A stretch of 64,000 nt of DNA, taken from the NCBI RefSeq assembly GCF_900106535.1, contig NZ_FNOH01000013.1, positions 186,001-250,000 of the forward strand. The letters are read 5' to 3'. How positions within the stretch are numbered: position 1 is the stretch's first letter; each line of letters begins with the position of its first letter. The notes beneath the pieces are model-generated. The model saw only the letters and a list, made by a program, of their open reading frames with translations. It was not told the DNA's origin and made no database searches. Both the position numbers and the translations under genes were made by a program. Positions 39,675 through 51,214 of the stretch are shown here, piece after piece. This DNA comes from Myxococcus xanthus. GTDB taxonomy: Bacteria > Myxococcota > Myxococcia > Myxococcales > Myxococcaceae.

Positions 39675-40309
39675 GGGGTGCGCAGCATAGCCCGCCCGGC
39701 GCGCGCGGCCAGCAGGCTCCGAGCCGCCGCCGTCGGGTCGTCGGCCTCCAGGACGGACGAGATGACCGCGAAGCCCGCCGCGTCCGGTAGCGTCATCGCC
39801 CGCGCGGGGGTGATTCCGCCCAGGGCCAGCGCGGGGCAGGGCAACGCCGCGGCCAGGGCGCTGAACCCCTCCGGCCCGAGGGGAGGCCGTGTGTCTCCCG
39901 GCTTGGAACCGGGCGCGAACACCGGGCTCACCAAGGCGAGGTTCGCGCCTCGGGCCGCATGGGCCTCCGCCACGTCATGCACGGCGGCGCTGATCCACCT
40001 CCCGGCGGGAAGGTGCGGGCGGACGTCCATGGGGGAAGGGCCATGGGCGGGAAGGTGGATATGGGCGCCGACGAGCAGCGCCACGTCGACACGCCCATTG
40101 ATGAAGAGCGGGTTGCCACGTGGGTGGCACAACGCGGCAAGCTCCCGCGCCTCGTCGAGGAATCGGCGCCCGGTGGCCTCGGGATGGCGGTGCTGGACGG
40201 CCACCTCGGGCCCGGCGTCGAGCGCCCGGGTGAGCGCCCACCTCAGCCGTTCGGACGGCAGGCGCCAGTCGGTGATGACGACGAGCCGGGGAACGGTTGA
40301 AGGCACCAC
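39671..40309 (-). CDS. thiE: Thiamine phosphate synthase-like protein (ThiE/TenI)
   Basis: A 212-residue TIM barrel of the ThiE/TenI family. Landmarks are VAVQHRHPEATG (substrate loop), LFINGRVDVALLVGAHIHLP, SAAVHDVAEAHAARGANLALVSPVF and LALGGITPARA. ThiE joins thiazole and pyrimidine phosphates; TenI aromatises the thiazole. The usual R-D-K triad after Gln is R-H-P here, so a TenI-like role is possible. GTG at 40309 gives a 16-bp gap after thiG and is preferred over a TTG at 40348. Confidence 0.72.
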   Translation of the reverse strand: MVPSTVPRLVVITDWRLPSERLRWALTRALDAGPEVAVQHRHPEATGRRFLDEARELAALCHPRGNPLFINGRVDVALLVGAHIHLPAHGPSPMDVRPHLPAGRWISAAVHDVAEAHAARGANLALVSPVFAPGSKPGDTRPPLGPEGFSALAAALPCPALALGGITPARAMTLPDAAGFAVISSVLEADDPTAAARSLLAARAGRAMLRTP

Positions 40310-48673: not shown

Positions 48674-49285
48674 TTACTCCTCGGGCTTCGCGGGTGGTGG
48701 CGGCGGCGCATAGCCTGTGGCGGCCATCCGCTGCCCGCTGCGCTGATACATCTCCGCGGGCATGTCCTGAACGCCGGTGCCGTCAATCCATCGATTGTAG
48801 AAGTTGAAGAGCGCGCACACCGTCACGGTGTCGAAGAGGGCTTCGTCTGTCCACCCGGCGTCCTTCAAGTGTGCGATGTCGTCCCGTCCCACCTGCGCCG
48901 CACGGTGGTTGAGGGTGTCCACGAAGGCAAAGAGGGCCTTCTCGGCCTCGGAGATGGGGGCTGTCGCCACGTCCTCCAGGACCGCTTTCACCAGGTCGGG
49001 ATTGCCCAGCAGTTCCGCCGCGACCGCGGCGTGAGAGCCCGTTCAAAACAAGCATTGGTTGCCGCGCGACGTGTACGCGGCAATCAGCTCTCTGAGTCCG
49101 GGCGACAGCGGGGAAGGGCCCCGCATGACTTCATGGGTGAAGCGGGACAGGGCCTCGCCCAATCGCGGCTTGTACGCGAACAGGTGCCAGATTTGCGGGA
49201 CGGGAGAGCCCACCTCTCGGGCCATGCGAATCAGTCGACCGTAGTGGCCATCGGATTCGCGGTCCTCGACGTCCTTCAGATGCAT
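48674..49285 (-). CDS. AhpD/CMD-family selenoprotein (in-frame UGA, CxxU)
   Basis: One reading frame of 203 residues interrupted by a single TGA at 49045-49043 (codon 81) and nothing else. The family active site of AhpD (Glu, CxxC, His) is reproduced with its exact spacing if TGA is Sec: E66, C78, U81, H85 (NQCLF-U-TGSH). A SECIS-like hairpin follows. It would act as a thiol/selenol peroxidase or disulfide reductase. Automated tools would call two broken genes. ATG at 49285 is taken; an earlier in-frame ATG at 49360 is weak. Downstream of corA and the hydrolase gene. Confidence 0.82.
49016..49045 (-). promoter_or_regulatory. UGA codon plus SECIS-like hairpin
   Basis: On the minus strand UGA (49045-49043) is followed by 11 nt, then the stem CGCCGC (49031-49026), a GGUC apical loop (49025-49022) and GCGGCG (49021-49016). 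The loop begins 17 nt after UGA, inside the 16-37 nt range of bacterial SECIS elements, and GGUC is the apical loop of the E. coli fdhF SECIS. All six stem pairs are perfect. Confidence 0.8.
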
Positions 49286-49370: not shown

Positions 49371-50168
49371 TCAGGCGCCGCGCCCCTGAAGCGACGTCAG
49401 GAAGGCATCCAGCACGGCGTTGACCCGATCGGGCTGTTCCTGGTTGGCCAGGTGCCCTGCATCCGGAATGACCTCCAGCTTCGCTCCGGAGATGAGTCCG
49501 GCGATTTCCTTCGCCTTGGCCGGCGGGGTGAGGGCGTCGTGCTCGCCCACAATGACCAGTGCCGGGCCCGCGTACCGCGCCAGCATGTCCTTGCTGTCCG
49601 GGCGCAGGGCCATGCCGCGCAGCGCGGCCGCGACGCTCGCGGGGGAGGCCGCGCGCATCAGTGCCGCCACTTCCTGCGCCACCGGTGAGTCCGGTCCCGC
49701 GGCCACCATCTTGGGGAGCATGGCCTGGATGATGGGCTCCACGCCGACCTCCAGCGCCTGTATCGCGGAGGTCTCCCGGCGCGCCTTGCCCTCCGCGTCA
49801 TCCGCGGTGGCCTGCGTATCCATCAACACCAGCCCGCTGACGCGCCCCGCGTCCTCGCGCAGCAGGGCCATGGCGGCGTAGCCCCCCATGGACACTCCAC
49901 CCACCACCACGGTGTCCAGATTCAGCGCGTCCAGCAGCGACAGCGCGTCACGCGCGATGCGGAACATCTCCGTGGGGCCGTCGCCCAGCGCGCTCTCTCC
50001 GAAGCCTCGGATGTCCGGGATGATGAAGCGGTAGCGCCCCGACAGCGCCTTCACCTGTTTGTCGAAGGTGCTGCCATTCAGCGGAAACGCATGCAGCAGC
50101 AGCACGGGTGGGCCCTTGCCCTCGTCCCGGTAGTGCAGGGGGACACCATCCACGGTGACGGTCAGCAT
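49371..50168 (-). CDS. Alpha/beta-fold hydrolase
   Basis: A 265-residue alpha/beta hydrolase. It has the LLLHAFPLNGS oxyanion region, DIRGFGES, the nucleophile elbow GVSMGGY, an acid in IVGEHDALTPP, and the histidine in DAGHLANQEQP. It is 22 bp downstream of the corA stop and upstream of the selenoprotein gene, so it is probably co-transcribed with both. The substrate is unknown (ester, lactone or haloperoxidase-like). Confidence 0.87.
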   Translation of the reverse strand: MLTVTVDGVPLHYRDEGKGPPVLLLHAFPLNGSTFDKQVKALSGRYRFIIPDIRGFGESALGDGPTEMFRIARDALSLLDALNLDTVVVGGVSMGGYAAMALLREDAGRVSGLVLMDTQATADDAEGKARRETSAIQALEVGVEPIIQAMLPKMVAAGPDSPVAQEVAALMRAASPASVAAALRGMALRPDSKDMLARYAGPALVIVGEHDALTPPAKAKEIAGLISGAKLEVIPDAGHLANQEQPDRVNAVLDAFLTSLQGRGA

Positions 50169-50190: not shown

Positions 50191-51135
50191 TCAGAACCAC
50201 TCTTTGTGCTTGAACCAGAAGACCATCCCCACTGGCAGCCCGAGAATCGACGCCCACATCAGGTACCAGGCGTTGTTCGTGTAGAGCCGGTCGAAGTTCT
50301 GCCCGAAGAAGCCGACGATGCAGGACAGCGGCAGGAAGATGGTGGCGAAGATGGTGAGCTGCTTGGAGATATCGTTCGTTTTGTTCGCCACCATGGACAG
50401 GTAGCCGTCAATCACGTTGCCGATGATGTCGCGCCCGGCATCAATCTGCTCGTACAGCCGCACCAGATGGTCGTACACGTCACGGAAGTAGAGCGTCGTC
50501 TTCTCGTGGACATGGGAGATGCCTCGCCGGGACAGCAAGCCCACCACGTCGCGCTGGGGCGACAGCACCCGCCGGAACGTCACGAGCATCCGCTTCATGG
50601 CGAAGATGCGTTGCAGGTGGGACTTCTCCGGCTTGTCGAAGATGGCGGCCTCCAGGTCCTCGATCTCGTCACTAAAGGTGTCGAGGATGGGGAACTGCGC
50701 ATCCACCAACGCGTCCGCGAGCATGTAGAAGACGAAGTCCGTCCCTCGGATGAGCGTCGCCTGCGGGTCCTCCTTCACTCGGCGCATCACGGTGTCGTGG
50801 CCCGCGAAGGGGAGCTCGTGGACGCTGATGAGCCAGTCCTTCGCCAGGAAGAAGTGGTGCTCGTGCAGCGTCAGTTCGCAGATGTCCTTGCCCGTGACGG
50901 TGAATCCCTGGAGGACGACGAACTGGTGGTTGGGGTATTCCTCCAGCTTGGGCCGCTGGTCCAGGTGGAGGCAGTCCTCCACGGCCAGCTTGTGCAGACC
51001 GAATTGGGCGGCCAGCCGGGCCAGCACCTCCTCGGTCGGATGAAGGACGTCGATCCACTTCCGGCCTTCCTCGCCCAGCAGCTCTTCACCACCGGTGAGA
51101 AGTTGACCGTCCTTCACAAGACAGACCTGAATCAT
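50191..51135 (-). CDS. corA: CorA-family divalent cation transporter
   Basis: A 314-residue CorA-family protein with a large cytosolic helical part and two C-terminal membrane helices (LTIFATIFLPLSCIVGFFG and LMWASILGLPVGMVFWF). The selectivity motif GMN is GQN here (FFGQNF), a variant also recalled in other bacterial CorA relatives. It is likely a Mg2+ or other divalent channel with altered filter. ATG at 51135 (MIQVCLVKDG) is preferred over 51171 because it gives the usual CorA N-terminus. Confidence 0.85.
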   Translation of the reverse strand: MIQVCLVKDGQLLTGGEELLGEEGRKWIDVLHPTEEVLARLAAQFGLHKLAVEDCLHLDQRPKLEEYPNHQFVVLQGFTVTGKDICELTLHEHHFFLAKDWLISVHELPFAGHDTVMRRVKEDPQATLIRGTDFVFYMLADALVDAQFPILDTFSDEIEDLEAAIFDKPEKSHLQRIFAMKRMLVTFRRVLSPQRDVVGLLSRRGISHVHEKTTLYFRDVYDHLVRLYEQIDAGRDIIGNVIDGYLSMVANKTNDISKQLTIFATIFLPLSCIVGFFGQNFDRLYTNNAWYLMWASILGLPVGMVFWFKHKEWF

Positions 51136-51214
51136 CCCGTAGCGCTCCCAAGCCAGCGGCATGGCCCGCATGCGAGTGCTAGAACTCCCCCGCGCGGAAG
51201 TCGAGCGCTAGAGT

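Follow-up and report, generated by a model that had tools for sequence, protein, structure and literature searches.

A candidate AhpD-like CxxU selenoprotein gene with an in-frame UGA and a downstream hairpin in Myxococcus xanthus

Two minus-strand open reading frames of Myxococcus xanthus stand directly next to each other, in phase, with a single TGA between them. The question is whether this TGA ends a gene, breaks one, or is a codon for selenocysteine (Sec) within one. The frames lie in the window, i.e., the whole 64,000 nt stretch of DNA that was analysed. The initial annotation, made from the letters of the sequence, took them to be one gene, and its coordinates and frame are exact: from 49285 to 48674 the minus strand reads as a single frame of 203 codons followed by TAA, with one inner TGA. 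Comparison with homologous sequences indicates that the locus is very probably an intact selenoprotein gene, with UGA 81 decoded as Sec in a 203-residue AhpD-like protein of the CxxU type. Features of the locus and of its upstream neighbours are listed here, with the basis of each call in brackets.

48674..49285, minus strand: candidate AhpD-like selenoprotein gene, ATG to TAA, 203 aa with TGA as Sec (TIGR01926, Pfam CMD)
49088..49090, minus strand: Glu66 codon, by position the proton-relay glutamate (translation, alignment, AhpD spacing)
49052..49054, minus strand: Cys78 codon, partner cysteine of the CxxU motif (translation, alignment)
49043..49045, minus strand: in-frame UGA, predicted Sec81, the equivalent of Cys133 of M. 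tuberculosis AhpD (translation, homologue codons)
49031..49033, minus strand: His85 codon, by position the proton-relay histidine (translation, alignment, AhpD spacing)
49016..49031, minus strand: putative bacterial SECIS hairpin, stem CGCCGC/GCGGCG of 6 bp, loop GGUC, 11 nt after the UGA
49371..50168, minus strand: alpha/beta hydrolase gene, upstream (profile matches; context)
50191..51171, minus strand: CorA-type Mg/Co transporter gene, upstream (profile matches; context)

Reading frame, active site and family

Alignment A1 has 13 rows, consisting of P0001 and 12 of the 20 loci found in a scan of genome contigs. The start Met is unchanged in all 13 aligned rows, and residues on either side of the TGA are conserved. 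Both the translation and the alignment display the fixed spacing of the Glu, CxxC/CxxU and His relay, with E66, C78, U81 and H85 in the window's protein. This spacing equals that of Glu118, Cys130, Cys133 and His137 of M. tuberculosis AhpD, which are described as part of a proposed proton relay (PMC3141380). Thus reading TGA as Sec does restore the AhpD site, as was first proposed, and both the residues and their spacing are exact.

For profile and structure programs Sec81 was entered as Cys. The protein matches the peroxidase-related (AhpD-like) model TIGR01926 with 105.8 bits (cut-off 81.8) and Pfam CMD with 41.6 bits (cut-off 23). The match to NF041238, AhpD_rel_CFYUT (seleno)protein, is partial and reaches 47.4 bits against a cut-off of 175, which does not place the protein in that family; a second NCBIfam (seleno)protein model gives 24.1 bits against 310. 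Since both (seleno)protein models score far under their cut-offs, automatic pipelines may overlook the gene, and what is likely called as two fragments would be one enzyme. The AlphaFold model, computed with Cys for Sec and the 13-row alignment, has a mean pLDDT of 91.6. Its closest solved structures are peroxidase-related AhpD proteins, e.g., 2prr, 6k40, 2pfx and 3c1l, and a sequence search ranks the same PDB entries first.

The UGA codon and the hairpin in homologues

The protein scan of genome contigs yielded 20 loci. All but one have TGA at codon 81; these 19 come from Myxococcus, Corallococcus, Acidobacteriota, an Acidimicrobiia MAG and a Gemmataceae MAG, which includes relatives in three phyla other than Myxococcota. 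In the remaining locus, a weak fragment, the codon is TGC. Of 27 Myxococcus genomes, 21 have a match at E <= 0.001 and 14 a strong one, and all 14 strong matches have TGA. Weaker matches in the genus are found at 16 loci; the codon was read in 13, all TGC, with L066-L068 left out because their alignment is unusable. A threshold of E <= 1e-30 leaves 44 matches, in 43 of 195 Myxococcota genomes, with TGA in 42 (40 full-length and two partial) and TGC in the two others, both partial. Matches are present in 37 of 396 Acidobacteriota genomes; the 14 that are full-length comprise 10 with TGA and four with TGC, and five more matches have TGA. Judging from these codons, the gene is carried with the same UGA by many myxobacteria and by some distant bacteria.

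Throughout the homologue loci read, the codon aligned with position 81 is TGA or a Cys codon (TGC/TGT), which answers the initial annotation's call for an inspection of this codon; the only exception is in L112, where a second, weak match (E 7e-5) has a different codon at this place and looks spurious. An in-frame UGA at a site where homologues have Cys is a mark of bacterial selenoproteins, and it is found here. It should be noted separately that the record L025 (BNCN01000010.1), titled Comamonas sp. KCTC 72670, has the gene at 92% identity and in the Myxococcus gene order, and that its selA position is the same as in the genus member G014 (G197, G014). Thus this record is very likely a mislabelled Myxococcus.

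The hairpin was described initially as a perfect 6-bp stem with a GGUC loop 11 nt downstream of the UGA, and it is located exactly so, at 49031-49016 of the minus strand. The sequence has what is expected of a bacterial SECIS, i.e., a stem-loop right after the UGA with a small apical loop that contains G. Rfam at gathering thresholds gives no match anywhere in the window, and between 48900 and 49150 no SECIS-like family appears at E <= 10. The window has 1490 TGA triplets, counting both strands; 69 are followed by an in-register stem of at least 6 bp and 14 by one at least as strong as this; the GGUC loop is present only in the case of codon 81. Shuffling of synonymous codons in the window gene, with the protein fixed, produces an equally strong in-register stem in 32.5% of shuffles, and p is about 0.33 if the stem may lie anywhere in the stretch. 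The shuffles often recreate the stem because HAAVAAE, when written in GC-rich codons, is nearly palindromic. The original argument from chance was that random nonsense would not be expected to fall on the redox residue and also be followed by a SECIS. Its first half stands, as the TGA is on the redox residue and is conserved; its second half is weak for the hairpin taken alone, which about a third of the shuffles match.

The family as a whole was then represented by 52 sequences of less than 85% identity, taken from 93 distinct coding sequences among 123 tblastn rows (E <= 1e-15, covering query residues 60-120). An in-register stem of at least 5 bp is found in 31 of 31 UGA representatives versus 3 of 21 Cys representatives (Fisher p 3e-11, uncorrected for kinship, and with the register rule fixed after the sequences had been seen). 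The combined shuffle p is 3.5e-5 for the UGA forms (31 representatives, likewise uncorrected for kinship) and 0.95 for the Cys forms. Most Cys representatives are paralogues, and the like-for-like set consists of the four Cys orthologues L123, L125, L126 and L127, which have at most 2 bp at the hairpin position. With the lone hairpin weak by shuffling and the stem so unevenly distributed across the family, the significance of the hairpin rests on its conservation among homologues. By this comparison of sequences, the hairpin belongs with the UGA form and not with the family at large.

Variation within the stem includes paired changes: the fourth pair is altered from C-G to U-A in L031 and L117, and two pairs are altered in L119. 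The stems of the distant UGA group L145-L148 differ, and the UGA form L121 has a stem of just 5 bp with the loop CACG. Codon usage was compared in 23 UGA representatives of at least 45% identity, at positions where the residue is kept in at least 15. At the five Ala/Val codons of the hairpin the window's codon is kept in 74-88%, versus 6-70% at 15 other Ala/Val positions (means 0.81 versus 0.40). Scored by the commonest codon, the other positions range from 38 to 83%, and two of them, V53 and A117, vary no more than the hairpin codons do.

In a tree of the 52 representatives the four Cys orthologues cluster together (99/95) within a branch that holds UGA forms (95/91), and this in turn sits within a 28-row branch (99/97) of which 24 rows are UGA. 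Well-supported branches force at least three changes of state between UGA and Cys. The tree has a midpoint root only, so the direction of change is inferred; the simplest reading of the sequences is a change from Sec to Cys in which the hairpin was lost and selA is mostly absent. The UGA clade with its nested Cys clade would be a natural Sec/Cys series, useful for asking how selenium benefits an AhpD-type enzyme.

Selenocysteine machinery and readings of the UGA

The initial annotation asked for a search of the genome for selA, selB, selC and selD, and all four are there. The tRNA-Sec model scores 74.8 bits (gathering 47) and ARAGORN reports SeC(tca); selB scores 282.5 bits, or 307.2 with the second piece of its frame (cut-off 242.25), selA 545.6 bits (cut-off 267.9) and selD 385.8 bits (cut-off 125). 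In 14 control genomes the same models exceed their cut-offs in five (tRNA-Sec), two (selB), one (selA) and two (selD), and thus the tRNA-Sec model is the least specific of the four. ARAGORN also calls a 96-base tRNA-Trp inside the window, at 39846-39941 of the minus strand, where Rfam at gathering has nothing; this is perhaps a false call.

The selD match of the host genome has no in-frame stop, and the host SelD has Cys at the position that we take to be the active one. Three molybdopterin-oxidoreductase matches, two of them partial, are also found in this genome, none with a stop in the matched part. In a 2006 survey, as far as its available text goes, every selenoproteome had FdhA or SelD (PMC1794560), and the host genome may lie outside this rule.

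Presence of selA was compared with the form of the gene. In Myxococcota selA is found in 42 of 42 genomes carrying the UGA gene, which says little, as selA is over the cut-off in 150 of all 195 genomes. The Acidobacteriota are more informative: selA (E <= 1e-50) is in 14 of 15 genomes with the UGA form versus 3 of 22 with Cys only, where many of the Cys forms are paralogues and G555 and G444 were counted as Cys-only from a stop-free listing, with the codon unread. The four genomes with Cys orthologues proper comprise three without selA and one (G289) with it, and G186, a Myxococcota genome with only the Cys form, has no selA. Nine genomes tested from among those behind named loci all have selA, several of them being already in the other counts. 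One genome, G343 (L146), has the UGA form and a strong hairpin yet no selA match; it is possibly an incomplete assembly. Within the genus, 13 of 27 genomes lack a strong match to the gene, yet all 27 have selA over the cut-off, and thus other selenoprotein genes should exist in Myxococcus.

How else might the TGA be explained? It could be a sequencing error or the mark of a pseudogene, in which a Cys codon changed to TGA and the downstream part is decaying. A single base separates TGC from TGA, and the standard code does split the frame in two. However the same TGA recurs across several genera and phyla in genomes that were sequenced independently, residues before and after it are conserved, and the orthologous Cys form is nested within the UGA clade. 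Conservation of the TGA across phyla thus disposes of the doubt, raised at the outset, that the position might be a sequencing error or a variable residue, and this explanation is extremely improbable. It is also very unlikely that the UGA is a true stop between two proteins, one ending at residue 80 and the other, of 105 aa, beginning at an internal GTG. Each piece is an open frame and has a possible start, but the break would fall within the CxxU active site, the GTG at 48991 would exclude H85, Cys orthologues run through the site without a stop, and the homologous solved structures are single chains.

UGA is commonly read through to some degree in bacteria, and a Cys form would be chemically workable. 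It is therefore conceivable that the codon is read by another route, by a near-cognate tRNA or as Cys or Trp. Against this are the complete Sec machinery of the genome, the neighbouring hydrolase frame that terminates at UGA, the conserved in-register hairpin, and the way in which the UGA form tracks selA in the Acidobacteriota; such decoding has very little probability. The preferred reading remains decoding as Sec, in which SelB and charged Sec-tRNA(Sec), together with the hairpin after the codon, would place Sec at position 81. The locus adds a well-supported selenoprotein candidate to the aerobic, laboratory-tractable myxobacteria.

Possible function and comparison with known AhpD-like proteins

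The product is predicted to be an all-helical, AhpD-like protein of 203 residues with a CxxU active site. By homology, Sec81 would probably be the nucleophile that reduces a hydroperoxide or other electrophile, Cys78 would probably resolve the selenenic acid by forming a selenenylsulfide, protons would probably be relayed by Glu66 and His85, and a cellular dithiol system would probably re-reduce the protein. What the sequence itself shows is the frame, the machinery, the conserved UGA and hairpin, and a predicted fold; Sec insertion, the residue that reacts first (Sec81 or Cys78), peroxidase activity, the reductant and the substrate, for which peroxide is the likeliest candidate, are inferred. 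A selenoprotein that is not a peroxidase should also be considered: its CxxU site could catalyse disulfide exchange, Bmp8-type reductive dehalogenation or another reaction of which the CMD/AhpD fold is capable. Both by sequence and by fold, the debrominase Bmp8 is one of the relatives, and the substrate-binding sites of AhpD-like proteins are described as not known (PMC3141380). Nevertheless the nearest matches are peroxidase-related proteins, Glu, Cys and His of the relay are retained, and the scanned neighbours (five without a Pfam match at the thresholds used) give no pointer to halogen chemistry; this possibility is rather unlikely, with enough weight to be kept in mind.

The genes closest by are those for an alpha/beta hydrolase, CorA and an ARPP-2 protein. 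The hydrolase and corA genes keep their upstream position, strand and order in the loci from Myxococcus and Corallococcus and in one Myxococcaceae MAG, and were not found beside the gene in the remaining loci compared (E <= 1e-10). From the gene arrangement it is possible that the hydrolase gene is co-transcribed with the selenoprotein gene. In one Actinomycetota and one Acidobacteriota locus a gamma-glutamyltranspeptidase gene is directly upstream (L033:3299-4996 and L037:3172-4992), a possible link to glutathione. Ten further neighbours in nine loci have nothing in common except this transpeptidase (two loci), and ahpC, whose product is the classical partner of AhpD, is not adjacent among the three nearest and two more window genes scanned. 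As no neighbour is generally common, no pathway or function is assigned from context. In L022 (M. xanthus AM003), L042 and L043 the neighbouring ARPP-2 gene aligns only in part, which suggests a deletion, insertion or divergence adjoining the selenoprotein gene.

A broader role can be put forward tentatively. AhpD-like proteins in Myxococcota, Acidobacteriota, Actinomycetota and Planctomycetota could form a separate branch that mostly uses Sec, and this branch could be one of the main clients of the Sec machinery in myxobacteria that are aerobic predators, with SelD of the Cys type and no Sec formate dehydrogenase seen. This is doubtful, although not implausible; if true, an oxidant-facing enzyme, and not anaerobic formate metabolism, would help to retain the 21st amino acid in these bacteria.

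Among proteins of known structure, the Cys-type peroxidase-related AhpD proteins 2pfx, 6k40, 3c1l, 2oyo and 2prr are alike in fold (TM 0.71-0.74 on the query), and 2pfx and 6k40, the two alignments inspected, have Glu, CxxC and His spaced as in the Myxococcus protein. They differ in having Cys for Sec, at 24-29% identity. M. tuberculosis AhpD shares the spacing of the four relay residues; however it is a Cys enzyme with a weak fold match (1gu9, E 0.4), and its helix motif is described as being elsewhere in the chain (PMC3141380). NF041238 AhpD_rel_CFYUT has a similar AhpD-type site in a longer model of 357 positions.

AhpD-like CxxU selenoproteins were first reported from Sargasso Sea data (PMC1088965), and families of this kind are among those counted in ocean data (PMC2398784). 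The table of a 2026 review places the family under TIGR01926 with the Sargasso Sea paper as source (PMC13188914), which bears out the statement of the initial annotation that such selenoproteins are known in other bacteria. The one myxobacterium named in the available text of the 2006 survey is the anaerobe Anaeromyxobacter dehalogenans, which has 11 selenoproteins listed, none of them AhpD-like (PMC1794560). The string "myxo" is absent from the accessible text of the review (PMC13188914), and a search of titles and abstract starts in the open-access literature found no paper about myxobacterial selenoproteins. The candidate is like the known AhpD-like CxxU selenoprotein (TIGR01926) in the cut-off it passes, in the Sec at the second position of CxxU, and in having, after the UGA, a stem-loop whose apical loop contains G; it differs in its host. 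Thus the Myxococcus gene would be a member of a known family in a host group without an earlier report in the literature searched.
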